From contig CAJONB010000002.1 of assembly GCA_905235715.1 (NCBI GenBank), positions 2,783-66,782 on the forward strand: a stretch of DNA of 64,000 nucleotides, read 5' to 3'. The notes beneath the pieces were generated by a model that searched no databases, had not been told where the DNA came from, and was given only the letters and a program-made list of their open reading frames with translations. The DNA comes from an uncultured Ruminococcus sp. (GTDB lineage: Bacteria > Bacillota > Clostridia > Oscillospirales > Acutalibacteraceae). Of this stretch, positions 1,581 through 59,681 are shown piece by piece. Numbering within the stretch: the stretch's first letter is position 1; each line of letters starts with the position of its first letter. Made by a program: the position numbers and the translations under genes.

Positions 1581-2027
1581 TTAATCTGCGGCTTCTTCGG
1601 CAGCTTCTTCAACAGCCTCGGCAGCTTCTTCAACAGCCTCGACAGCTTCTTCAACAGCCTCGACAGCTTCTTCGACTGCTTCCTCGACTGCTTCCTCAAC
1701 CTCGGATTCTTCCTTAGCGGCAACAATCTCAGCGTCGTCGGGCTTGCGGATAATCAATGAACGCATAACGCCGTCGGTAATCTTGTAGATACGATCCAGC
1801 TCTGCGGGAAAATCGGGCTCAGCCTCAAAGTTCATCAGAACGTAGTAGCCCTCTGACTCCTTGTTGATGAGATAAGCCAGCTTGCGCTTGCCCCATTCGT
1901 CAACACTCTGCAGAGTAGCGTTCTTCTCGATAAGATTCTTGAACTTCTCGATGATAGCCTGGATACCTTCCTCGCCCTGCTTCATTGAAATCACCATTAC
2001 GGTCTCGTAATTAGCCTTCAATGCCAT
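1581..2027 (-). CDS. rpsF: 30S ribosomal protein S6 with long Glu/Ala/Val-repeat C-terminal tail
   Basis: MALKANYETVMVISMKQGEEGIQAIIEKFKNLIE...WGKRKLAYLINKESEGYYVLMNFEA; RBS gaggagg upstream. Confidence 0.93.
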   Translation of the reverse strand: MALKANYETVMVISMKQGEEGIQAIIEKFKNLIEKNATLQSVDEWGKRKLAYLINKESEGYYVLMNFEAEPDFPAELDRIYKITDGVMRSLIIRKPDDAEIVAAKEESEVEEAVEEAVEEAVEAVEEAVEAVEEAAEAVEEAAEEAAD

Positions 2028-2124
2028 GTTTACACCTCCTCTTGGACTAGTGGCGCCACACTGATCAATGCGGCGCAAGGTTAATATAATCGGTTACGGG
2101 CATAGTTGCACACATAACATGAGT

Positions 2125-2153
2125 ATTATATCGGAAAGATGCGCAAATGTCAA
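2125..2153 (-). promoter_or_regulatory. Consensus sigma-A promoter of rpsF-ssb-rpsR
   Basis: Minus strand TTGACA-N17-TATAAT (TGTCAA 2148-2153, ATTATA 2125-2130). Confidence 0.85.
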
Positions 2154-2164
2154 GAAAAATCTAT

Positions 2165-3064
2165 TTAATTTGTAAATCCCAGCCCCGAAATTGCCGTCGC
2201 GTTCGTCGTAATCACAAAGGCTTCCGGGTCGGCTGAGATGATGTGACCCTTGACGCGGTAGACGTCGCGCGTGTGCGTCGCGCAGAGAATCACGCCCTTC
2301 GGCGTTCCGGAATAGCCGCCGCGTGCGGACAGTACGGTCACTCCCCTATCCACGTCATGCGTCAGATGCTCCGCCATGCTGTCGGGGTCGGCAGTAATAA
2401 TAATCAGCAGCTTACCGTTATCGCGTGAAAAGCCGAATACCACCGCGTCTATCAGCTTTGATGACACAAAAATCGCGATAATCGCATACAGGCCCGATTC
2501 CAAACTATGATAGATGATTGTCGACAAAGTGATAACGATTGCGTCCGCTATCAGGATGATGCTGCCAACGCTGAGAAAGGGAAATTTATCGTGTAAATTG
2601 CGCCCGATAATATCGGTGCCTCCTGTGCTTCCTCCGCGCAAAAAGATGATTCCCAAGCCGGTTCCGCTGAGGATTCCGCCGAATATGGCAGCGATTAATT
2701 TATCTCCTGTGTAATGTATCGGCAAGAGGGTGAAAACGTCGATAAAAGCGGACACAAGAGTGCTGGCGATAACCGTACGAATAATAAACCGCGTTCCGCT
2801 TTTGATAGCGCCCCAGATAAACAGCGGGATATTCAGAATCAGCGAGGTCGCACCTATCGGAACGTAAATCAGATAGTGCAGCAGGGTCGCGATACCGGTG
2901 ATTCCGCCGGGTGCGATTTGGTTCGGCGCGGTAAAAAATTCAACCGACAGCGCATAGACCGCCGCGCCGAAAATTATCATCAGATAATCGAGAATCTCAG
3001 CGCCTATCGCAGGGAATCTCCTGTGAGAATCCTGCAGAAATCTTGCTCCGTCGGTTGTCATCAT
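2165..3064 (-). CDS. YitT family membrane protein (DUF161/DUF2179)
   Basis: Multi-TM, GGSTGGTDIIGRNLHDKFPFLSVG motif and C-terminal DUF2179-like GVTVLSARGGYSGTPKGVILC. Confidence 0.88.
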   Translation of the reverse strand: MMTTDGARFLQDSHRRFPAIGAEILDYLMIIFGAAVYALSVEFFTAPNQIAPGGITGIATLLHYLIYVPIGATSLILNIPLFIWGAIKSGTRFIIRTVIASTLVSAFIDVFTLLPIHYTGDKLIAAIFGGILSGTGLGIIFLRGGSTGGTDIIGRNLHDKFPFLSVGSIILIADAIVITLSTIIYHSLESGLYAIIAIFVSSKLIDAVVFGFSRDNGKLLIIITADPDSMAEHLTHDVDRGVTVLSARGGYSGTPKGVILCATHTRDVYRVKGHIISADPEAFVITTNATAISGLGFTN

Positions 3065-3067
3065 GTA

Positions 3068-3475
3068 TCACGCTTTACTGTTTGATATATAATTCAGTAT
3101 GAGCGCGAAAAGTTCTTTTATGCGTTCCTTGTCACCCTTCAGGTACAGATAGCCGAACAATGCCTCCAGACCCGTGGCGGCATGATAATCGGAAAGGGTC
3201 GAGTGCTTCGACGCGGAATTGACCTTGGCATTTCTTCCGCGCTTGTAGACCTCTGCTTCCTCCTCGGTCAGTATGGGAAGCAGGATTTTCGCAAATTCCG
3301 CCTGACTTTTGCAGTTGACCATCTTGACCTTCAGCCCGTTCAGCTCGCCGACGTGTGCCGAGCTTTCTGTTACAAGATGCTCCCGCACCAGTAAATCAAA
3401 CACGCCGTCGCCGACAAACGCGAGATTCAGGGTCGGGATCGCGTTCAGCTTGGATTTATCTTCAAAATTCTGCAT
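3068..3475 (-). CDS. mrnC: Mini-ribonuclease 3 (start at MQNFEDKSK)
   Basis: NLAFVGDGVFDLLVREHLV...RGRNAKVNSASKHSTLSDYHAATGLEALFGYLYL. Confidence 0.87.
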   Translation of the reverse strand: MQNFEDKSKLNAIPTLNLAFVGDGVFDLLVREHLVTESSAHVGELNGLKVKMVNCKSQAEFAKILLPILTEEEAEVYKRGRNAKVNSASKHSTLSDYHAATGLEALFGYLYLKGDKERIKELFALILNYISNSKA

Positions 3476-3479
3476 AGCA

Positions 3480-4760
<1,281 letters not shown>

Positions 4761-37815: not shown

Positions 37816-38077
37816 TGTGAGTTCATGTTTCACCTGAGTGTTATAAAAGCAATTATTTTAATAGCTTGAGTAAAGGTTACGATATCCGACTGCAACCCAT
37901 TTTTGCAAATATTGTTGATTATATCACAATTCATAGGATAACCTTAATTCTATTATATGAAATTACACTACTCTCAAACTGTTGCAAGAGAATGAGAATG
38001 ACGGACATAGTTTTACTACCTTATCCTCAAAGAACTGAACGCGTTAAAAAAACACGCTGATATAAGGTCGTTTCAAG

Positions 38078-38108
38078 AAAAGTTGCATAATTTTATGCAA
38101 CTTTTTTT
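38078..38108 (+). terminator. Terminator
   Basis: aaaagttgcataa ttt tatgcaactttttttct. Confidence 0.75.
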
Positions 38109-38151
38109 CTGTTTTTAACATTAGTGAGAGGCTGAATCAAATACAGAAAGG

Positions 38152-40167
38152 ATGAGAACCATCAGTATTACCAATCAAATTCTGCGCATAAGGAACAATA
38201 TCGAGTCTGCCTATGATGCGCTGAGTTTAAAGGGCGCTACCCTGCCGACAGTACGAAACAGCAACAACCTCGCCGATACAATTGACAGTATCAGCGGCAC
38301 GGGAACAACAGTGGAATACTCTCAGGTGAATCCATCGGTCGCGGCATATCTTGCCGAGGTCACCTATGATCCGTCCGACTATTCCGTGAGCCGTCTGGAT
38401 GAATATGTGACAGTGCCGACCGACTATGATAAGTCTAAGCCAGCGGGCGCGAACGTCAACGTTCCCGCGGCGGGTACGTTGATCCTGACCGACGGCAGCA
38501 GAAGCCTGTCAAAAAGCGTCAGCGTGGGAAATTGCGCCGTATATAATATCATCCCCGGGCACGCGGGCACTTATTTGATAAAAACTGCCGCTGATAAAAC
38601 AGTTTCCGCCGGAGTCTTAAAGCCCGACGGAGCCCTGCGTATGATTGACACGCAAGCGACCGCTAACGTCCGCGATCTCGGAGGATGGTCGTGTGACGGA
38701 GGTACTGTCAAATACGGTATGCTTTTCAGAGGCGGAGAAATCGGTGCAGCCGATACCGCGCTGTTCCATGATTTTTTGGGGATTCGCGCCGAGCTGAACC
38801 TGAGATGGGATGACGAGGTTACACGCGACTACTCGCTTATCGGTGAAGATGTGGATTTCAGACATATCAACGGCCCGTGGTATTCTGTCGGCAACAGCTC
38901 CAACTGGCCGCCGGACGCCCACAAGCAGATACTCAACTATGTAATGGATTATGTCATCGCGGGAAAGCCCCTGTATTTCCATTGTGCCGCAGGCGCGGAC
39001 AGAACCGGAACGCTTGCTTTTATTCTGGAGGCGATTCTCGGTATGTCCCAAAGCGATATGGATAAGGAATATGAATTGACCAGCTTTTACACCGGTATCG
39101 CTACAGACGCTCAGGCACGCCGCAGAAACGAGGATGAATGGAAGAACTATATGGCACAGTTCAACAGCTATCCGGGCAGCGTAATGCGCGACAAGGTTGT
39201 CAACTGGGCTTTGACGCTCGGAATCACGATTGATAAAATCAACGCCTTCCGTGCCGCTATGATTGACGGCACACCCGAAGTATTATCAAACAGCGCCGGA
39301 ACCGTCACGATCACAAAAGCGCTGACGAATGTTTCGGTGGATAACACCGCAGCGAGTATGGCAAGATATCAGCCGTACACAGCGAACATCACGCCCGACA
39401 GCGGATATGCGATATCTGCCGTGACGGTAGAAATGAACGGCGAGCCGGTCAATGTATTCATAGGGACGAAGACAGCTCTGTACCGGCGAATAACAAATAA
39501 TCTGAGCCACTGTCATACAAATAATTTAAAATACAACACTATTGACGGTCAATCATACGGAGCAGCTTTGGAGGCTGATACCGGATATACGCTTGACGGC
39601 GGTAGTATATCAATAACTATAGGAGGGGTTGAAATGGCAAATGTTTATTATTCCGACGGAAAAATTGTGATTCCCAATGTAACAGGAGATATCGTCATTA
39701 CTGCGGCAGCTGTACCGCAGGGGCCTACATATACGAATGTTTGGGATTTATATAAAGTTAATTCCAGACTAAACTCAGGAGAATCCGATCCCGAGAGCGC
39801 AGGTTCATTCATTACAGGCTTCATTCCCATATCGGCGGACGCTCTTGCGGGTTCGTCTATCGTTCTCCGCAGCAACATGAATCTGTTCAATTATACGGAC
39901 TTAGCAAGCTCGGGCGATTACGTTCGCCTCTATCCAACAGCCACGGCAGGAACACAGTCAGCCTCTGATATAATGTCAGCAAGTTCTAAATTTACCAAAG
40001 GCTACGATTCGACAACAGGAATATATTCTCTTACAATTAATCGTTCATTCTATTCATCTGTAGCCGGCACAGCACATTATCTTCGATTCTGTGCTCAAAT
40101 ATCCGATTCGGCTATCGCGTCATCATTGTTCGACGGCTGTATTTTGACGATTAACGAAGAAATGTAA
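38152..40167 (+). CDS. Tyrosine phosphatase domain (Y_phosphatase3-like, CX5R) inserted in a phage-tail-like structural protein
   Basis: N-term ITNQILRIRNNIESAYDALSLKGATLPTVRNSNNLADTI; VRDLGGWSCDGGTVKYGMLFRGGEI...HCAAGADRTGTLAFILEAIL; C-term RRITNNLSHCHTNNLKYNTIDGQSYGAALEADTGYTLDGGSISITIGGVEM. Confidence 0.8.
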   Translation: MRTISITNQILRIRNNIESAYDALSLKGATLPTVRNSNNLADTIDSISGTGTTVEYSQVNPSVAAYLAEVTYDPSDYSVSRLDEYVTVPTDYDKSKPAGANVNVPAAGTLILTDGSRSLSKSVSVGNCAVYNIIPGHAGTYLIKTAADKTVSAGVLKPDGALRMIDTQATANVRDLGGWSCDGGTVKYGMLFRGGEIGAADTALFHDFLGIRAELNLRWDDEVTRDYSLIGEDVDFRHINGPWYSVGNSSNWPPDAHKQILNYVMDYVIAGKPLYFHCAAGADRTGTLAFILEAILGMSQSDMDKEYELTSFYTGIATDAQARRRNEDEWKNYMAQFNSYPGSVMRDKVVNWALTLGITIDKINAFRAAMIDGTPEVLSNSAGTVTITKALTNVSVDNTAASMARYQPYTANITPDSGYAISAVTVEMNGEPVNVFIGTKTALYRRITNNLSHCHTNNLKYNTIDGQSYGAALEADTGYTLDGGSISITIGGVEMANVYYSDGKIVIPNVTGDIVITAAAVPQGPTYTNVWDLYKVNSRLNSGESDPESAGSFITGFIPISADALAGSSIVLRSNMNLFNYTDLASSGDYVRLYPTATAGTQSASDIMSASSKFTKGYDSTTGIYSLTINRSFYSSVAGTAHYLRFCAQISDSAIASSLFDGCILTINEEM

Positions 40168-40351: not shown

Positions 40352-40383
40352 AATCCCCCTAAGCCGAGAAAGCTTAGGGGGAT
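40352..40383. terminator. Bidirectional terminator
   Basis: aatccccctaagc cgagaaa gcttagggggat. Confidence 0.65.
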
Positions 40384-40397
40384 ATTCTGTTTCTTGT

Positions 40398-41690
40398 TCA
40401 AAGATTCTTTTCCGGGAATACGTCTTTCAAAAGAATTGCGTCCCAAATCAGCTTTACATTCGGTCTAAGCTCACGGAACATCAGCGGAAACACAAATATC
40501 GTTGACATCTGTGTCAAAAGCGACGCTATCGCCGCACCGTTAACGCTCCAGAGGGGAATCAACGTATAGTTCAGAATGACGTTCAAAAATGCCGACCCGA
40601 GATATAGGTACTTCAGATACTTTTGTTTTCTTTCACATACAATCCAAGCATCCCGCGCAACGCCGAGATAGGAAAACGCGACATACCACACCACAATCCT
40701 GAGAGGACTCACCGAGGGCAGATAAGCGCTTCCGTAGATGATTTCTATCAGCAGCGGCGCAACCAAACAAATCAGCAGCGACGCCCCTAAAGAAAGGTAA
40801 AATACAATCGCGTACATCCGTTTGTTCATCCTCAGGTACAGAGCCTTATCGGTATTATGATACTCCATTATCGGCGGCTTCATGGAATCGATGATTGCCG
40901 ACAGGACAAAAACCCACATCGAGCTGATCTGAACAGCAAGCGAGTAATAGCCGACGCTTGATTCATCCAGCATTTGCATCAGCATTAATTTATCGGTTGC
41001 CGAATAGATAGCGACCATCAGGCCGGACAGGATATAACTACTGCTGACCGACAGAAGACTCTTTGCTTTATTCAGGGAGAAAGAAAACGAGGGACCGTTC
41101 TTTTTTTTATAAAAAATGTACAAGACCAACGCCGCCAGAAGGTAATCGATGGAATTGGAGATTGCAAACCATTCCACGCTCATTCCCATGATGAGAAGGA
41201 GCGCCTTATATGCCGACGCTATCGTAAACGATATCAAGGTCGCAATAGCGTAATACTTTGATTGCAGCTTCGCCTGGAACCATTGTTGCAAGGTATCAAA
41301 TGCCTGGAACACCAAGCTGATGCTATACAGCGCAACGACCCGGATAGTAACCGTATCACCGCGGTCAACAATCGAAACGATCCCTATGATCGTCACAAGC
41401 GACAACACACTGGAAATCAGCCTCAGCGTCAAAGTTGTACCGATTGCTTCGCCTTCCTCATCGGGGTGGTCAACAAAATCCTTAATGATAACGGAATTAA
41501 TACCCAGTGTGCAAAACGCCGTGAAAAACGTGCAATACGCGGCGGCGTAATTCAATATTCCATAGTTTGCCGGTCCCAGATAACGCGCCATCAGCAAGCT
41601 CATCAAAAACGACAGGAACATATGGAATATCTTGCCCATCATCAGCCATCCGGCGTTTTTAACAATACTTTTTTGCAAAAAACGCTTCAT
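40398..41690 (-). CDS. Oligosaccharide flippase (Wzx-like, MOP superfamily)
   Basis: NAGWLMMGKIFHMFLSFLMSLLMARYLGPANYGILNYAAAY. Confidence 0.9.
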   Translation of the reverse strand: MKRFLQKSIVKNAGWLMMGKIFHMFLSFLMSLLMARYLGPANYGILNYAAAYCTFFTAFCTLGINSVIIKDFVDHPDEEGEAIGTTLTLRLISSVLSLVTIIGIVSIVDRGDTVTIRVVALYSISLVFQAFDTLQQWFQAKLQSKYYAIATLISFTIASAYKALLLIMGMSVEWFAISNSIDYLLAALVLYIFYKKKNGPSFSFSLNKAKSLLSVSSSYILSGLMVAIYSATDKLMLMQMLDESSVGYYSLAVQISSMWVFVLSAIIDSMKPPIMEYHNTDKALYLRMNKRMYAIVFYLSLGASLLICLVAPLLIEIIYGSAYLPSVSPLRIVVWYVAFSYLGVARDAWIVCERKQKYLKYLYLGSAFLNVILNYTLIPLWSVNGAAIASLLTQMSTIFVFPLMFRELRPNVKLIWDAILLKDVFPEKNL

Positions 41691-43809: not shown

Positions 43810-46800
43810 TTAAAGGATAATTTTACCGTCTGCGTCGATGGTATAGGTACCTGCGGGAATCAGCCCGTTGGTTCTGGCTTCACCGATACCGTAGGTGCAG
43901 TTCTTGACAGCCTTGCGGGTGCTGTTGATGTAGTAGTAATTTGTACCGTCGGTGACAACGCCGGCATAGGTAGCCTCGCCGTTGACATAGTAGCGGATCT
44001 CGCCGTCATCGTCAAAGGACAGGCCGTCGTCGGGAGTTGTCGGCTCGGGATCCTGAGAAGGCTCGGGAATCACGATCTTACCGTCAGCGCCGATGGTATA
44101 GGTGCCAGCGGGAATCAAACCGTTAGTTCTGTTCTCGCCGATACCGTAAGTGCAGTTCTTGACAGCCTTGCGGGTGCTGTTGATGTAGTAGAAGCTTGTA
44201 CCGTCGGTGACAACGCCTGCATAGGTAGCCTCGCCGTTGACATAATAGCGGATCTCGCCGTCATCGTCGAAGGACAGACCGTCGTCGGGAGTCGTCGGCT
44301 CGGGATCCTGAGAAGGCTCGGGAATCACAATCTTACCGTCAGCGTCAATGGTATAGGTGCCGGCGGGAATCAGCCCGTTGGTTCTGGCTTCACCGATGCC
44401 GTAGGTGCAGTTCTTGACAGCCTTGCAGGTGCTGTTGATATAGTAGTAATTTGTACCGTCGGTAACAACACCGGCATAGGTAGCCTCGCCGTTGACATAG
44501 TAGCGGATTTCGCCGTCATCGTCGAAGGACAGACCGTCGTCGGGAGTTGTCGGCTCGGGCTCGTCGGAGGGCAGGTTGGTGATAACGCCGTTCTCGTCAA
44601 AGTCATAGGTGCCCGCGGGAATCAAGCCATTGGTCTTAGCCGGAGCGATACCGTAGGTGCAGTTGGTGACAGCCTTGTAGGTACTGTTGATGTAATAGAA
44701 GTTGCCCTCGTCATCCTGAACAACGCCTGCCTTCTGAGCAACGCCGTCTACACAATAGAAGGTACCGTTGGTTGCCTTGATTACGCCGGTGGTATCGAGC
44801 TTCTCGACCAGTGCGCCCTTGTCGGTAAACCGATAAGCCTCGGGAGCATTGTTGGAATAGCCGACTACCGCCAAGCCGGTATAAGCATAGCCGTCATAGT
44901 TGAATGCATAGGTTTCGCCGTCAATATCATACCAGCCGTTCTTGTAGCAGGAGGGACCGTAGAAGTAAGCATAGCCCTGAGCGTGCTGAATCCATCTGCC
45001 GGTGATAATCTTACCGTTGTCCTCAAACTCGTAAGCGATACCCTGATAGGTATAAGTGCCGGATACGCCTGCCAGAGTCTCGGGATCAAAGTAGTACCAG
45101 TCACCGTCCACCTGCTTCCAGCCGCTCTGGAGTTCGCCGAACTGAGCAAAGTAGGTCTTGCCGTCTTCTTCAAATACGCCGGTATACTTGCCGACTAAGG
45201 CGCCGTTATCGAATTCATAGTATGTGCCGTCAATTTCAACAATGCCGTCATAATCCTGAGCAATACCGTCGATGTAATACTTGTTATCTATGAAGCCTTC
45301 GAGCGCTACGCCGTCGACATAGGTCTTGCCGTCAGTAAATTCACCGGTAAAGAGTTCATCGCAGTCTTTGCACTTGAGAACGCCGTCGATTATCTCATAA
45401 GTATGACCGGTAGCGGGTACAACCTCGCCCCATTCAACGACAGAGTTACAGCCGTCGCAGAAGGTTCTGCCGGTATAGCCGTCCTCGGTGCAGGTAGCGG
45501 GCTTATCGTCAACAGCGTGAGCGGTATGCTCATGCCAGGAGGTAACATTCATGGTGCCGCCTTCGTTGCCCTTGTTCTGACCGATGTAGCCGTATTCGCA
45601 CATCGCCTCGGAGTCGATCTGGATCTTATCTGCGGAGAACGCGCCGATAGCGCCGGAATTATTGACAAAGTCAATAGAACCCGCTTTGGTTACAAGCTGG
45701 ATATCCATCGGATATACGCACTTCTTAGAGGTGATGATCCAATTGGAATCCTTGCCCAACGCATTGTGCGGATACCATGCGCGAATCGGGACAGAAGCCA
45801 GAACCGCCTCACCGCTCTCTGTAACGTCACCGGTCTTGGTGATGGTTATGGTAAGCTCGCCGGCGTCGCCGGGCTCGGTAGCATATTCAAACGCAAAGCC
45901 GTCGGCAACAACAGTGCCCTGAGGCTCCCAATCGTTGACGTTGTTGACCTTTAGAGTCGCGGTAGCCTTGTTGACGTTAGCGATATCGGTAGCTACGAGG
46001 TCGATATAGTACAGAGAACCAACAGCAGTCTCTGTCAGAGATTCGTCATGCGGTTTCACGATGATGGTATCATAGCTACTGCCGGTAGCTACATTGAAGG
46101 AAAGATTCTTGTAGCCCATATTGCCGTTATTGTCCTCAATCGTGAACTTAACGGTGTGGGGACCGTCAGCCAGAACGAGCGCGTTATCAATCGCAATCTT
46201 ACCGCTCTTATAGGTGCAGGCAACCTCGTTGCCGTCAATATACGCCTTAGCGGAGGAAGCTTTGATACCGGAAGCGTTCGTTGTGGGAGTATAAGCGGTT
46301 GCACCGCCGGCGAGCTTTCTGGTAGCGTCGGCAACATCAATGGTGAAGTCGATGTCGTTTCTGCTCATGGTCATACCGTCGGTAAATTTCGCAGCCTCCC
46401 ACATTCCGTTTGTCGCGTATACGGCAGAACCGAATTCGGGAGCCTCTCTGTCTTCAACTACCGAAGAATAATCAACGGTGTAGTTATCAATGAAGAGAGT
46501 GAACTTGGAATTAAAGGATTTGTTCTGATAGGATTTCCATGCGGAATCCTCAACATAGAATTCGAAGCAGCCACCTGCATAATAATCAGTAGGATAACCC
46601 TTTTGACCGTTCTTGGTGGTAGCGTTCTCGTTAAGAGGTCTGGATGCCTGCAGGGTCAATGCGGCATAGGAAGAATAAGCAGAAAGATCCGCGTAGTAGT
46701 AATACCAGTTGTCGGTGGGCAAATGCTGAACATCAACGAGCAGCTTCATGCCGCTGGTACCGCGGGTATACTTCGCGTCAGAAGCGTTCTTCTTAAAACC

Positions 46801-48657
46801 GAAGAAGAAGCGGGGATTCAAGCCCTTCGCGTCAATCTCGTCGGGAATATACATCCACATACCGATACCGGTAGCGCCGGTGATGTTGATAAAGTCCTCC
46901 GGAGCGCCGCCCATAGTGGAACCGTCTGCGTCAGCTGTATTGCCATGAGCCTTCATCGCCTCTGCGTTATAGCAGAACATCAAATCGATATAATCCTCAT
47001 AGTAGGTAAGCTGAGAGAAATCATAGTTGATAGCCAGCGCATAATCGCCGTTATGTACCTTACCGGTAGTGGAATCAACAATTTCAAGACTGCCCTGAAC
47101 GCCTGAGTTGTAGTAATCAAACAGGCTCATTTTCTCGGTAGACTGATCCTCAAAGTCCCAGATAACCTCGCTGCCCTTACCGACCTGCAGTTCAACGGTA
47201 GCGCTGACGCTGGGATTACAGTTAGTAGCAACCGTCAGAGTAGACTTGGTGGAAGAAAGCGGCTCGCTGGTAGCAGTAAAGGTCATCGCAGCAGCGTCGA
47301 TCGTACCGAATGTATTGTTACCCAGCGTGAAAGTGACATTATCAGGTCCGAAAGCGACCTCATGAACACCGTACATGGGTACAACGCCGAGATCGGTCGT
47401 CTTGCCGTAAGGACAGGCAATGCTTGCGCTTGTGAATGAAATGCTGTCGGGAACAACAACATTGACCTCACAGGTACCGACTACACTGCCGTTGTAAATC
47501 ATAGAAATGGTGTCGGTGCCCGCCTCAGAACCGGCGGTATAAATACCGTCAGCAACGGAACCGTTCTCTGCCGTATAGGTTACATCTTCGGGAATATCTG
47601 CAGATGTACCTGCGGGAGATACACCGGTAGCTGTAAACGCAACCGAAGCACCGGGCATTACATAGTCGTTCTCAACGGAAATAACCGCATGATCAAATAC
47701 ATCGGAGGGCGCCGCAAGGGAAGCGATAATCAGACCGTTCGAGATAGCGCGCTCGGAGCCGTCGGAGGGACGGTTGACGATAACGCAGTCATCTGTACCT
47801 TCGTTCTTAGCCATGTAAGTGGTAGAGCCGCCGCCGTCGAGGTTGAAGGCATACTTAGCGCCCGCTTCTATCATAATCTGAGCCAGCTCAGCCATGGAAG
47901 CGCCGCAGGAGAAGGGCTCCTGACGACCGTCGACAACAACTAAGATAACCTTGTTGTCTTCGGTAATACCCATCATGGTACGGGAAGCGCGGTCGGTATA
48001 ATAAGAGCCTGTCGCGCTGACAGCGGGAGCGCCGTCCCATACAAGGATAGAACCAAAAGCGTTGATAGCTTCCTCGATACCGGGATTCGCCTTGTAAGCA
48101 TTCCACTCGGCTACGGTCTTACCCATAACCGGAGTGCCGTCCTTCAGGATAGCAAAGAAGCCGGTGCTGCCGGTATAATTCTGGATAACCTCTCCGCCCA
48201 TCGCCCAAACGCCGGAGGGCTGACCGGTGGTCATGTTGTAGCCGTTACCGTTAGTAGCGGAAACAACGGAGTAGTACTCGCTGATGAAATCTTCGTCTTC
48301 CGGATCGGAATACTTCGCGTTAGCGGTAGCAACAGTCTGCGAAAGCTTTTCCATACCGAAGGTGTCATGCTGCATATCCTTGTAGGAAACCTGAAGCATA
48401 ACGTCATCACGGGTAACGTCCGCAGTGGTTACATAGTACACTAACTGCTTGTCATCAGCTTTGGTGTAAGCATAGTTCGTATACTGTGTTACACCGGGAG
48501 CAAGATTTTGTTCCGTGTGTTTGAACACGGTGTGTGTTGTGGACTCATAGTCAGCGTTGTAATTATCTACCGCTGCCGAAGCCGATATACTGAATACCGA
48601 CAGCGCCATAATCAACGCCAAAACCAGAGCCAAAACACGTTTTGAGGTTTTTTGCAT
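43810..48657 (-). CDS. Giant secreted phosphodiester glycosidase (NAGPA) protein with cell-wall-binding-like repeats and three 85-aa C-terminal tandem repeats
   Basis: Signal peptide MQKTSKRVLALVLALIMALSVFSISASAA; GNGYNMTTGQPSGVWAMGG...GASMAELAQIMIEAGAKYAFNLDGGGSTTYMAKNEG; GWKQVDGDWYYFDPETL. Confidence 0.85.
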   Translation of the reverse strand: MQKTSKRVLALVLALIMALSVFSISASAAVDNYNADYESTTHTVFKHTEQNLAPGVTQYTNYAYTKADDKQLVYYVTTADVTRDDVMLQVSYKDMQHDTFGMEKLSQTVATANAKYSDPEDEDFISEYYSVVSATNGNGYNMTTGQPSGVWAMGGEVIQNYTGSTGFFAILKDGTPVMGKTVAEWNAYKANPGIEEAINAFGSILVWDGAPAVSATGSYYTDRASRTMMGITEDNKVILVVVDGRQEPFSCGASMAELAQIMIEAGAKYAFNLDGGGSTTYMAKNEGTDDCVIVNRPSDGSERAISNGLIIASLAAPSDVFDHAVISVENDYVMPGASVAFTATGVSPAGTSADIPEDVTYTAENGSVADGIYTAGSEAGTDTISMIYNGSVVGTCEVNVVVPDSISFTSASIACPYGKTTDLGVVPMYGVHEVAFGPDNVTFTLGNNTFGTIDAAAMTFTATSEPLSSTKSTLTVATNCNPSVSATVELQVGKGSEVIWDFEDQSTEKMSLFDYYNSGVQGSLEIVDSTTGKVHNGDYALAINYDFSQLTYYEDYIDLMFCYNAEAMKAHGNTADADGSTMGGAPEDFINITGATGIGMWMYIPDEIDAKGLNPRFFFGFKKNASDAKYTRGTSGMKLLVDVQHLPTDNWYYYYADLSAYSSYAALTLQASRPLNENATTKNGQKGYPTDYYAGGCFEFYVEDSAWKSYQNKSFNSKFTLFIDNYTVDYSSVVEDREAPEFGSAVYATNGMWEAAKFTDGMTMSRNDIDFTIDVADATRKLAGGATAYTPTTNASGIKASSAKAYIDGNEVACTYKSGKIAIDNALVLADGPHTVKFTIEDNNGNMGYKNLSFNVATGSSYDTIIVKPHDESLTETAVGSLYYIDLVATDIANVNKATATLKVNNVNDWEPQGTVVADGFAFEYATEPGDAGELTITITKTGDVTESGEAVLASVPIRAWYPHNALGKDSNWIITSKKCVYPMDIQLVTKAGSIDFVNNSGAIGAFSADKIQIDSEAMCEYGYIGQNKGNEGGTMNVTSWHEHTAHAVDDKPATCTEDGYTGRTFCDGCNSVVEWGEVVPATGHTYEIIDGVLKCKDCDELFTGEFTDGKTYVDGVALEGFIDNKYYIDGIAQDYDGIVEIDGTYYEFDNGALVGKYTGVFEEDGKTYFAQFGELQSGWKQVDGDWYYFDPETLAGVSGTYTYQGIAYEFEDNGKIITGRWIQHAQGYAYFYGPSCYKNGWYDIDGETYAFNYDGYAYTGLAVVGYSNNAPEAYRFTDKGALVEKLDTTGVIKATNGTFYCVDGVAQKAGVVQDDEGNFYYINSTYKAVTNCTYGIAPAKTNGLIPAGTYDFDENGVITNLPSDEPEPTTPDDGLSFDDDGEIRYYVNGEATYAGVVTDGTNYYYINSTCKAVKNCTYGIGEARTNGLIPAGTYTIDADGKIVIPEPSQDPEPTTPDDGLSFDDDGEIRYYVNGEATYAGVVTDGTSFYYINSTRKAVKNCTYGIGENRTNGLIPAGTYTIGADGKIVIPEPSQDPEPTTPDDGLSFDDDGEIRYYVNGEATYAGVVTDGTNYYYINSTRKAVKNCTYGIGEARTNGLIPAGTYTIDADGKIIL
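43822..44580. repeat. Tandem 255-bp (85-codon) repeats inside the phosphodiester glycosidase gene
   Basis: cggctcggga anchors at 44041, 44296 and (diverged cggctcgggc) 44551, exactly 255 bp apart. Confidence 0.85.
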
Positions 48658-48703
48658 GGTTTTTCTCTCCTTTTTTTTATTTATATTTAAAGCTAAATAT
48701 AAG

Positions 48704-49519
48704 CTAAAAATATTCTGTATAAGGGTGTTCCAAATCACACACTGTATAAAAATGATGTCCGACCTTTTCCTCCTCGGGCAAGTCGGCACGCCAGTCGCCG
48801 TATTTCTGCGTAAGATAGGCGTCATACTCTGCCGGAACAGTTACAGCAAATCCTTCAAAGGTCATTTCAGTTCCTTCGCCGTACTGTTCCCGGGGTGCGT
48901 ATTCTTTCATCCCCTGCCAGTTGCCGTGATTGCACCATACTGCAGAGGACCCGGTCGGGTATGCGGATACCAGCTCCTCCAGTTTTCGCGCGGTCGAGGC
49001 GGTGCGGCGATGATAGCCCAGCGCCCTCAACGCCAGAAAATACAGTCCGGTAGTTATCTTCTGACCCTTTTCAAAGGCGTTAGCAGAGTCAAGCCGGATT
49101 TTATATCGTCGTTTTTTTCGCTCAAGCCGCTTGATTTCACTTGCCTGCGCCGGACAGCCGTCCAGAGGAAAAACATCAATAAAAACACCTTGGTGGATAT
49201 TACGATGACGCATACTTCTTTCGATATAAGCGGTGCGGGAGTCCCTCAGCTTAGCAAATATTTGCGGGTACTCGGGATCTGTTGCATAAGTTTGCAAAAA
49301 GCACCATGACGGCAAAAATTCTCCCGCTCGTTCGATAAAGGTACGGTAATCCTCGCGAGGCATCCCTACGTCGATATCATCGTCCCAGGGGATAAATCCT
49401 CCGTACTTTACTGCGCCCAGCGCGGAACCGCAAACAAGATAATACCTGAGCTCCAGCTTACCGCATACATCAATAAGGTTCCTAAGCAATTCCAACTCTG
49501 TTTTTTGCAGCCGATTCAT
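48704..49519 (-). CDS. LicD family phosphotransferase 1
   Basis: LRYYLVCGSALGAVKYGGFIPWDDDIDVGMPREDY. Confidence 0.9.
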   Translation of the reverse strand: MNRLQKTELELLRNLIDVCGKLELRYYLVCGSALGAVKYGGFIPWDDDIDVGMPREDYRTFIERAGEFLPSWCFLQTYATDPEYPQIFAKLRDSRTAYIERSMRHRNIHQGVFIDVFPLDGCPAQASEIKRLERKKRRYKIRLDSANAFEKGQKITTGLYFLALRALGYHRRTASTARKLEELVSAYPTGSSAVWCNHGNWQGMKEYAPREQYGEGTEMTFEGFAVTVPAEYDAYLTQKYGDWRADLPEEEKVGHHFYTVCDLEHPYTEYF

Positions 49520-50628
49520 ATTGTCTCCCAAAAGAATTTATAATGACTGATTTCCAACTGATTGGGAATTAACGTCTCGGTGATAAAAAGAAACAGTAAA
49601 AATAAAATCAATCCGATTTTCAGAATTGTCCTTTGTTCCTCCTTATACTTCATCAACATATTGGGCAGCAGCGGCACCATCAGTATCACGAAATAATTGA
49701 CCGTGCGAAGCATAGAGTCGCCGGAAAAAAGGATTTCTCCGAAGACACACAGCTCTGACACTCTCATGCACATTGTATCTTCAAACACAATCTCAGACGG
49801 TTGATTTGCCAATGCTCTTTTTGAGCCGAGAATCCCTAAGCCGTAATATGTCTCATACGTAAACACACAAAATATCATTACCCCAACCAAAAAGATAAAA
49901 TTACCACCCAGAGTAATTGAAGTATTGACGTCAACCGTCTTCATCAATTGGTTGACAGCCGACCAAACAAATACTCTGCCGAATATCGATATAAGCAGTA
50001 TGCTCAAAAAGACGAACAGATTGAATCTGACGAATTTTTTGCTGTAAATCATCACAATGGGAATGATGTAAAAAATATACGCCGACCGGTGTATCGTTAT
50101 CGCTAAAGCGATGATGAAAATCCCCAAAATGACAGGGATTGGTTTTTGTTTATAAAACAGGAGATATGCGAATATACACATCGACATTGCCAGAGTCTGA
50201 CGCAGTCCGCTCATGGAAAACACGAACGACAGATAACAGACAAATATCAGCAGCGACATCATCGCGTCGCTCGAAAACTTGCTGATAAACAGATACAGCG
50301 CAAGGCACTCTACAAAGTATATCAGCGCTGCAAACAGCTGAAAACTGACCCCGAGCTTTGAGAAAAACTTTTCAAGGAGAATATATCCTGTCTCAAAGAA
50401 AACATAGTCGTTGTTCGACCAAGACATATAGCGGCTGATATAGTATTGCTCCCGATAGCCCATAATGTCGCTGCCGACGGTGGGGGATTTTAATGAAAAG
50501 ATCAAAAAGATGAACGCAACGCCAAGGAAAGCTATCCATTTTTGCCTTTTATCATAGTCCGGGATAATCGGTTGCAAAACGAGGGGAAGGAGAAAAATAT
50601 AAGCAAGCAATATGAAATAAATAATCAT
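49516..50628 (-). CDS. EpsG family polysaccharide polymerase-like membrane protein
   Basis: Multi-TM, SLKSPTVGSDIMGYREQYY...MSGLRQTLAMSMCIFAYLLFYKQKP. Confidence 0.8.
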   Translation of the reverse strand: MIIYFILLAYIFLLPLVLQPIIPDYDKRQKWIAFLGVAFIFLIFSLKSPTVGSDIMGYREQYYISRYMSWSNNDYVFFETGYILLEKFFSKLGVSFQLFAALIYFVECLALYLFISKFSSDAMMSLLIFVCYLSFVFSMSGLRQTLAMSMCIFAYLLFYKQKPIPVILGIFIIALAITIHRSAYIFYIIPIVMIYSKKFVRFNLFVFLSILLISIFGRVFVWSAVNQLMKTVDVNTSITLGGNFIFLVGVMIFCVFTYETYYGLGILGSKRALANQPSEIVFEDTMCMRVSELCVFGEILFSGDSMLRTVNYFVILMVPLLPNMLMKYKEEQRTILKIGLILFLLFLFITETLIPNQLEISHYKFFWETI

Positions 50629-53979: not shown

Positions 53980-54852
53980 TCAACATTCCATATAGGAACG
54001 CGTTAAATCCATCGAGATAAAATCATGATGTGTAACCTGTTTTTCCTTAGGCGGCAGCTGTCGCCAATCTCCGTAGATATTTGTCAGATACTCGTCATAA
54101 CGCTCAACGCCCATAACGGTCATATTCTCAAAAGGATACCCGACAGGCACGCCGATAATTGTACGGCTGACCAGCTCACGCTCGCCCCACGCGCCCAAAA
54201 GATTGCCGACCCAAAGGGAACGGTCAAAGTCATCCTGCGCGCACATCCGGTCAAGCTTTATCCTCACCTGCGTCGGATTAACGATTCGTTTCGGAATTAT
54301 TCGAGCCGCGAGCACAACAGCGTTTTTGAACACGCTCCTGCCCTTTCGGATACCGCCGATAAGTGAAATATAGAAATAATACTGTTTTAAAATCCTTCTC
54401 AGACGGCGTTTTCCCTCTTCCAAGTCGTTTCCCACGCCGTCGAGCGGAAATATATCAAGGAAAACGCCTCTTTTCAGGGGTTTTCTCTTATGCTCGATTA
54501 ATGTTGTCGTTGTATCATACAGCTTACAAAAGGGATAACAAAAGCTGTCGTCTGCGGTCTTGGGAGATTCAAGAAGATAGTTATCAAGCCGTTTATCTCC
54601 CATAAGAGACTGAAGCTTTTCATAGTCCTTACGGGGCATCGCTAAGTCGATATCGTCATCCCACGGGATAAATCCGCCGTGACGTACTGCGCCCAGAAGC
54701 GTTCCGCCGACAGCATAGTATCTCAGTTGGTTCTCACGGCAAAAGCCATCGAACCAGCGCAGCATCTCCAGCAGCTTTATCTGCAGGGGAGACAATTGAG
54801 GGTTCATGATATCAGCCTCCGGAAACTCATTTCTTTTTCGGTATTCTGCCAA
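53980..54852 (-). CDS. LicD family phosphotransferase 2
   Basis: LRYYAVGGTLLGAVRHGGFIPWDDDIDLAMPRKDYEKL. Confidence 0.92.
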   Translation of the reverse strand: MAEYRKRNEFPEADIMNPQLSPLQIKLLEMLRWFDGFCRENQLRYYAVGGTLLGAVRHGGFIPWDDDIDLAMPRKDYEKLQSLMGDKRLDNYLLESPKTADDSFCYPFCKLYDTTTTLIEHKRKPLKRGVFLDIFPLDGVGNDLEEGKRRLRRILKQYYFYISLIGGIRKGRSVFKNAVVLAARIIPKRIVNPTQVRIKLDRMCAQDDFDRSLWVGNLLGAWGERELVSRTIIGVPVGYPFENMTVMGVERYDEYLTNIYGDWRQLPPKEKQVTHHDFISMDLTRSYMEC

Positions 54853-58173: not shown

Positions 58174-58899
58174 TCAAGGGTTCTTTCTGTAATAATACTT
58201 ATTGTAATAGTAGCCTTTACCCTTTTTATAATACGACTTTTTATTGTTCTTACCGTTGTAGACAAAGCCGATAATTTTTCCGTCTGTAAATAATAATTTG
58301 TGGATTGCTTCGTCCACCATCTTGTACTCGGAGTTCTCGTGGCGCACAACTATGAGATAGCCGTCTATTACGTCGGACAGAAGCGCCGCGTCGGATACGA
58401 TGTTGATAGGAGGAAAATCGAAGATAATATAATCATATTCCTCCTTCAGCTTTTGAATCAGCTCCAGCATTTCATCCGAGCTGATCAGGGTTGTCGAATC
58501 CGGCGGCAGGTTGCCGGAGGGGATAACGTCAAAGCCTCTTGTGTAATCATGAATCACCGGGATTTCGGTAACATCTCCCGACAGATAGTTGGAGATTCCG
58601 GGCGTTGACTTTATGCCGAGCTTCTGCGCAATCGTAGGCAGACGTAAATCGCAGTCAATCAAGATTACCCTCTTGTTGATTTGCGCCAGTGAAACCGTCA
58701 GGTTGACGGCGATAGTACTCTTGCCGTCGCCCCGGTCGGCGGAAACAACACCGACGCATTTGCAGTCCGTACCGGGAAGCGAAAAGGTGACGTTCGTTCG
58801 AAGCGTTTTGTAGGCTTCCTGTACCGAGAAAGGAGATTTATTGGACAGCAGCATTTTATTTGCGTCAAAAATAACGTTAGACGATTTTTCCTGCTTCAT
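58174..58899 (-). CDS. CpsD/CapB-type tyrosine kinase
   Basis: VVSADRGDGKSTIAVNLTVSLAQ Walker A; VILIDCDLRLPTI Walker A'; Tyr-rich C-terminus KKSYYKKGKGYYYNKYYYRKNP. Confidence 0.9.
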   Translation of the reverse strand: MKQEKSSNVIFDANKMLLSNKSPFSVQEAYKTLRTNVTFSLPGTDCKCVGVVSADRGDGKSTIAVNLTVSLAQINKRVILIDCDLRLPTIAQKLGIKSTPGISNYLSGDVTEIPVIHDYTRGFDVIPSGNLPPDSTTLISSDEMLELIQKLKEEYDYIIFDFPPINIVSDAALLSDVIDGYLIVVRHENSEYKMVDEAIHKLLFTDGKIIGFVYNGKNNKKSYYKKGKGYYYNKYYYRKNP

Positions 58900-59681
58900 A
58901 TTTCTCTCTCCTTCCCTTCTGAACTTTTATCAGAACGCCCTGTGCCATAGCTACCGTAATAGCCGTAACCGGATTTTTCCGTCTGGGTGACATCCGGTAT
59001 CACGCCGAGCACCGGGAACGAAAAATACGCTTCCAACTCGCCCTCGCCCTTAACGGTATCATCCCGGAAATACCGGATAATCACAATCACCACAACGGCA
59101 AGAAAGCCGAATAAAAAGCCAAGCATCCCGTACTTCATATAGTTCGGCCCGTAGGGTGACTCGGAATACACCGGATAATCAATAATTTTCATCGAGCTAC
59201 CCTCAACCACGTCGGCGATTTTGGGCGGTGCGGTTTTAGAGAGGGCAACCGCGAGATCATACGCCACCTCAGGGTCCTTGCTCACAACATAAACCACAAG
59301 TATTTCGGTTTCATTCATAATGCTGGTAGAAACCATAGACCTGAGTGCTCTGATGCTGTAATCCAACCCGATTGATTTTGCCGCTGCGGACAATATAGAA
59401 TCAGACGAAATGATTTGGCTGTGGGTTCGTACTATCTCTTTCGAAGCGGTGATATCCGATCCCGAAAGGTAGTCGATATTCGTCTGTACCTGCTTGTTGT
59501 TGACGTAAGCTGTGAAGCTGCTTCTGTATACCGGCTCTATTACCGCTTTTGTCGTTGCAAAAACTGCAGCGCCGCAAAGAATGCCGACCAGAATTGCCAA
59601 CCATGCTTTTGATACAATCGCCTTCAATAAAGGCAAAATATCAATCTCTTTTTCATTTTTGTGCTTTTCATTTTTATCCAT
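58896..59681 (-). CDS. Wzz/CpsC-type capsular polysaccharide chain length protein
   Basis: EIDILPLLKAIVSKAWLAILVGILCGAAVF; second TM MKYGMLGFLFGFLAVVVIVII. Confidence 0.88.
   Translation of the reverse strand: MDKNEKHKNEKEIDILPLLKAIVSKAWLAILVGILCGAAVFATTKAVIEPVYRSSFTAYVNNKQVQTNIDYLSGSDITASKEIVRTHSQIISSDSILSAAAKSIGLDYSIRALRSMVSTSIMNETEILVVYVVSKDPEVAYDLAVALSKTAPPKIADVVEGSSMKIIDYPVYSESPYGPNYMKYGMLGFLFGFLAVVVIVIIRYFRDDTVKGEGELEAYFSFPVLGVIPDVTQTEKSGYGYYGSYGTGRSDKSSEGKEREI

Follow-up and report, generated by a model that had tools for sequence, protein, structure and literature searches.

A putative siphophage tail-tip phosphatase encoded by an orphan gene beside an exopolysaccharide cluster in a Ruminococcus sp.

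The open reading frame at 38152–40167 on the forward strand of the window, as the whole stretch of 64,000 nucleotides analysed here is called, probably derives from a siphophage, in which its product would have been a receptor-processing phosphatase of the tail tip acting on a phosphorylated surface glycan; the chromosomal copy would now be an orphan and mainly a leftover. The phage tail-tip origin of the gene is well supported by comparison of sequences; the substrate and current function of the protein we infer.

The open reading frame and its relatives in phages and cells

The gene is a single open frame of 671 amino acids, an extent matched by a full-length homologue. This nearest homologue, L077 (genome G306, same genus), also has 671 residues and is 47% identical from end to end over 691 columns. 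The two proteins have a four-part layout in common, including an unusual junction of two Ig-like repeats; frame damage at that junction was considered and ruled out, since L077 has the identical one. From its N-terminus the window protein comprises the N-module (residues 4–50, 38161–38301), read as a phage tail-tip adaptor from its matches in prophage tail genes and viral contigs; a beta-rich domain (residues 52–160, 38305–38631) seen in structure model me4990cba5983 (pLDDT 91.5); the phosphatase domain (residues 161–381, 38632–39294), recognized by PF13350 and by Foldseek matches to 8dhi, 8dhj and 1ywf; the two Ig-like repeats (residues 384–524, 39301–39723), delimited by alignment of tail proteins; and a C-terminal domain (residues 525–671, 39724–40164), which alignment shows to be the most divergent part. 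Identity with L077 is highest in the phosphatase part (65%) and lowest in the C-terminal domain (33%), a contrast typical of receptor-binding proteins. The model of the full-length protein (pLDDT 67) is poorer than that of the beta-domain and phosphatase.

Assignment to the Y_phosphatase3 family, made in the initial annotation from the motifs RDLGGW (residues 174–179) and HCAAGADRTG (residues 277–286), agrees with the Pfam scan, in which PF13350 matches residues 166–345 with an E value of 1.1e-22 (81.6 bits, cut-off 22.2). The same annotation had noted the lack of a signal peptide; the first 80 amino acids are weakly hydrophobic (maximal 12-residue Kyte-Doolittle mean 0.92), so the window protein can be taken to have none. 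The Pfam scan and the N-terminal hydrophobicity gave no dockerin or membrane anchor, and PHROGs and NCBIfam scans returned no usable family for the protein.

Both flanks of the phosphatase had been likened to phage-tail repeats. For the N-terminal flank the likeness holds: the N-module, about 45 amino acids without a Pfam or PHROGs family, matches the prophage tail genes L033 and L257, the gene that follows the tail protein of L065, and viral contigs L143 and L149. It fails for the C-terminal flank, whose Ig-like repeats are found also in large bacterial surface proteins bearing signal peptides, and therefore the N-module alone is diagnostic of phage origin.

The phage-tail scaffold itself was borne out, the same architecture being found in prophage tail operons and in viral contigs. 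L077 is preceded by a tail-type gene. L065 has a complete head-to-tail operon (portal to tail), which ends with a BppU_N-like tail protein containing the phosphatase unit; in L067 a tape measure gene and two tail genes precede the phosphatase; in L099 a tail-type gene is followed by the phosphatase, a small holin-like gene and a GH25 lysozyme; and in L115 three tail genes stand between the tape measure and the phosphatase gene, after which come a holin and an endolysin. The tail module from tape measure to lysis is thus seen whole or in part at these four loci, and it is absent at the window locus. Most of these gene names are our reading of the proteins; PHROGs confirmed the tape measure and a tail protein of L115, and the holin was confirmed by a Pfam match in the L064 cassette, which is nearly identical. 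Single-sequence scans of genome contigs and viral contigs gave no match; profile A2 did match, and the profile scan of viral contigs yielded 37 loci, 28 of them non-redundant after removal of near-copies. Among the neighbours of the phosphatase the commonest PHROGs families are tail proteins, endolysins and amidases. Some of the phosphatase-bearing viral contigs are 100–390 kb long, and two very large phage contigs, L150 (387 kb) and L151 (302 kb), carry distant copies. In BFVD, the best matches to the full-length model are three phage proteins of about 600 amino acids named as tyrosine phosphatase family.

In all, 143 distinct units from phages and cells were compared. The initial annotation had named the regular presence of signal peptides in homologues as speaking against it, and this was not seen: among proteins with complete starts, an N-terminal hydrophobic stretch occurs in 0 of 36 phage-type copies versus 76 of 95 cellular copies. 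The window protein and L077 form a pair in the tree (98% support) within a clade of 37 phage and nine cellular sequences (99%), where the cellular sequences are nested at several places, a pattern that suggests repeated transfer of the unit between phages and cells. Phage pairs give pN/pS values of 0.12–0.21 over whole genes, that is, purifying selection. Rumen Bacteroidales (L162–L231) carry the beta-domain and phosphatase in secreted proteins, some of more than 1000 amino acids. In L096 and L054, phosphatases with a long histidine run are encoded beside lysine-pathway (DapA/DapB-like) genes.

The chromosomal locus and the recurrence of N-module genes

The window gene stands alone between two terminators, as first described, and no phage genes adjoin it. 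A dicarboxylate symporter lies upstream. Downstream is a convergent polysaccharide flippase (40398–41690, reverse strand; Pfam Polysacc_synt), the last gene of an exopolysaccharide cluster that extends to about 59.7 kb and holds one gene for a NAGPA phosphodiester-glycosidase domain protein (1671 amino acids, 43810–48825), two for LicD phosphotransferases (48704–49531 and 53980–54852), all on the reverse strand, and a tyrosine-kinase-like pair (58174–59681). The hairpin search placed one terminator-like hairpin at 38075–38108 (forward strand), 43 nt upstream of the ATG, and a bidirectional terminator at 40353–40383, between the phosphatase and flippase genes; ten terminator-like hairpins were found in the window, with 3.3 expected from shuffles.

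The start of the gene appears to have changed. The Shine-Dalgarno-like sequence AGAAAGGA (38145–38152, forward strand) is well spaced for a codon at 38161 and overlaps the annotated ATG at 38152. Relatives start at the position matching 38161, with ATG or TTG, or with ATT in L074 (N-module gene in the region of 9633), and the window gene has there ATC (38161–38163), a probable decayed or weak start codon; alignment of the relatives indicates that this was probably the original start. No promoter-like site was seen between the upstream terminator and the reading frame.

A phage remnant is the reading we favour, because of (i) the ATC start, (ii) the lack of a promoter-like site nearby, and (iii) the lack of portal genes of PF04860 and PF05133, the two families searched in this genome of about 95% completeness, a result on which a prophage elsewhere in the genome was also rejected. 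The search for flanking direct repeats that might be attachment sites returned just short repeats at chance level. Partial remnants of such phages do occur, as in G238, where a 2.4-kb piece carrying the phosphatase gene and the holin shows 95% DNA identity with phage contig L115, has abrupt ends and adjoins a repressor-like gene and bacterial genes. Against this reading, the 671-codon frame is intact, which that of a long-dead remnant need not be.

Domestication would mean that the host has retained the tail-tip phosphatase for trimming the phosphate of the exopolysaccharide that it makes, or for masking or altering the receptor of a phage, and that gene and polysaccharide locus move together. 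A domesticated effector or surface enzyme was possible in the initial annotation; we now hold it unlikely, though it is a rival to be taken seriously. The gene is the sole PF13350 match in the genome (1.81 Mb in 152 contigs) and closes an exopolysaccharide cluster with LicD and NAGPA; at the corresponding place G200 and G235 encode a secreted dockerin-phosphatase from the same clade. The window protein, however, has no export signal, its start codon is changed and weak, no promoter-like site is close upstream, and in other species no phosphatase gene adjoins the symporter orthologue, so that a remnant is the simpler explanation. What keeps host use alive is that orphan tail-tip genes, similar to the window gene but not orthologous, recur at polysaccharide loci, which hints at retention. 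Counting against host use, the N-module gene at one of these loci is decayed (L293), whereas it is intact at the related L289.

The N-module has 25 matches in 19 genomes of the genus, and their surroundings are not random. As we read the adjoining genes, polysaccharide loci account for about nine matches, a neighbouring TasA/SipW-like operon for six and prophages for three or four. The orphan genes at exopolysaccharide loci (L254, L256, L259, L287, L289, L290, L291, L293 and the window) have no head or tail genes alongside. At least two marker genes were present at 8 of the 25 N-module loci versus 2 of 34 arbitrary control stretches from the same genomes (Fisher P=0.013), an optimistic value because some of the markers (nucleotidyltransferase, RmlA and RmlB) had been drawn from the tested loci; for the same reason the association with polysaccharide loci is a lead, not a result. 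The genes beside the conserved TasA/SipW-like operon (L071, L072, L074, L075, L288 and L295, in six genomes) include several with leucine-rich-repeat-type parts, L295 being a fragment only, and small holin-like genes lie nearby in L071 and L075. At the polysaccharide locus L259, positions 1654–4116, adjoining phosphonate-synthesis-like genes, encode a tail-like orphan of 820 amino acids that contains a zinc carboxypeptidase domain (Peptidase_M14). A broader proposal, which we consider quite improbable, is that orphan tail-tip proteins combining a phage adaptor with an enzyme domain (phosphatase, zinc carboxypeptidase or others) would be working parts of the exopolysaccharide loci of the genus, modifying or guarding the adjoining polysaccharide, or would travel with it as pairs of receptor and receptor-binding protein exchanged with phages.

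Catalytic unit and candidate substrate

In an alignment of 11 unit sequences the beta-domain and the phosphatase are conserved jointly, as one unit. The model of the unit finds its best solved matches in a Clostridioides difficile PTP and Mycobacterium tuberculosis PtpB (MptpB), and the former (8dhi, 8dhj) is the nearest solved structure both by sequence profile (E 7e-16) and by fold. The P-loop HCAAGADRTG (38980–39009, forward strand) contains the nucleophile Cys278, Asp283 and Arg284 according to the alignments, and its H, C, G, A, D, R and T are invariant in eight tail proteins and the 11 unit sequences. It presents the HCXXGxDR signature, a CX5R loop with a catalytic-type Asp, with Ala at position 5 instead of the Lys of HCXXGKDR. 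This Ala is found in 38 of 38 phage-type copies with the motif, a uniformity partly due to selection since matches in the collection were partly chosen by the GADR pattern; members of the genus found through whole-protein search likewise have it. From residue 193 to residue 277 the tail-protein alignment shows no Asp conserved throughout, and hence no WPD-loop Asp. Enzymes of the MptpB family lack the WPD acid; their catalytic Asp is in the P-loop, whose Lys binds phosphoinositides (PMC3091653). From the invariant Asp, the lack of one upstream and the change of Lys to Ala we infer that the tail phosphatase is an active phosphomonoesterase not tuned to phosphoinositides.

The surroundings of cellular phosphatase genes suggest a glycan substrate. 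In G236 such genes have NAGPA and a flippase as neighbours, in G296 they are flanked by LicD and NAGPA, and in G210 they adjoin LicD; the G200 homologue of the 1671-residue NAGPA protein appears to continue into a phosphatase domain. The two LicD genes and the NAGPA gene of the window's own cluster point the same way. For the tail enzyme this argument is indirect, because in the tree the phosphatases of G236, G296, G210 and G200 belong mostly to another subfamily. The phosphate monoesters that such phosphatases remove could be laid bare by NAGPA. NAGPA-family proteins with a Y_phosphatase-type C-terminal end are encoded at L102 (8008–12000) and L069 (3–4364), in exopolysaccharide clusters related to that of the window.

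It is doubtful that the domain on the tail is a lectin or a pseudo-enzyme, or that its substrate is a phosphoprotein or lipid and not a glycan. The invariance of Cys, Asp and Arg in the aligned tail proteins argues against loss of activity, and the Ala in place of the Lys tied to phosphoinositide binding argues against a lipid substrate (PMC3091653); on the other side, the family is named for tyrosine phosphatases and its fold relative MptpB acts on phosphotyrosine and phosphoinositides (PMC3091653). An ordinary cytoplasmic regulator of capsule synthesis, CpsB- or Wzb-like, would suit a gene adjoining a cluster with a tyrosine-kinase-like pair, but it is very improbable and was rejected, given the tail adaptor, the Ig repeats, the different phosphatase family and layout, the convergent orientation and the gene's own terminators. 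Least credible is an assembly artefact joining phage reads onto a bacterial contig: although the assembly is fragmented, bacterial genes flank the gene to either side within a contig of 77.7 kb, and the pattern recurs in other genomes.

Proposed role and comparison with known systems

The range of cells open to a phage depends in part on the enzymes of its tail. We propose that the window gene is an orphan chromosomal copy of a tail-tip (receptor-binding) protein from a siphophage of Ruminococcus-like gut bacteria. In the virion, the N-module adaptor would fix the protein to the baseplate and the variable C-terminal end would bind the cell surface, where Cys278, with the P-loop Asp283, would remove phosphate monoesters from a phosphorylated surface glycan and so help the phage to bind or to pass the coat. 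The presence of the unit in at least 28 viral contigs suggests that these phages strip phosphate from the host surface on attachment. The chromosomal copy would be mainly phage DNA left beside the exopolysaccharide cluster, poorly expressed at best.

If this proposal is true, the tail tips of gut phages would bear a cysteine-based phosphatase, which would add a class to the known tail enzymes, and phosphate on the surface glycans of gut Bacillota, for which few tools exist, would be a candidate receptor or barrier. No published tail-borne enzyme of tyrosine-phosphatase type was found in the open-licence literature. Glycerophosphodiester phosphodiesterases (GDPDs) on the tails of Gram-positive phages are thought to act on phosphate-bearing wall polymers, and the text of their survey does not mention a phosphatase (PMC10194240). 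They resemble the window protein in that an enzyme domain is carried on the tail, but they are unrelated phosphodiesterases, whereas the window protein is a phosphatase of the cysteine-based PTP fold. With the atypical lipid phosphatases MptpB and Lmo1800 it has in common the PTP fold, the CX5R motif, the catalytic Asp of the P-loop and the lack of a conserved WPD-type Asp (PMC3091653); it differs from them in the P-loop Lys that defines them, in its additional N-terminal beta-domain and in being built into a tail protein. The C. difficile PTP, unlike the window protein, is a stand-alone enzyme of about 250 amino acids. Closest in size and nature are the BFVD phage proteins A0A8S5QN55, A0A8S5V632 and A0A8S5T7U1, the first two of which align along nearly the whole length of the window protein; no reported function or virion role was found for the three, whose names apparently come from routine annotation, and such uncharacterised phage tyrosine phosphatase entries would gain a testable role. 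In gene order and adaptor logic the window protein and its relatives, one of which has a weak BppU_N match below the Pfam cut-off, resemble the BppU-type adhesion modules of siphophage baseplates and tail tips.
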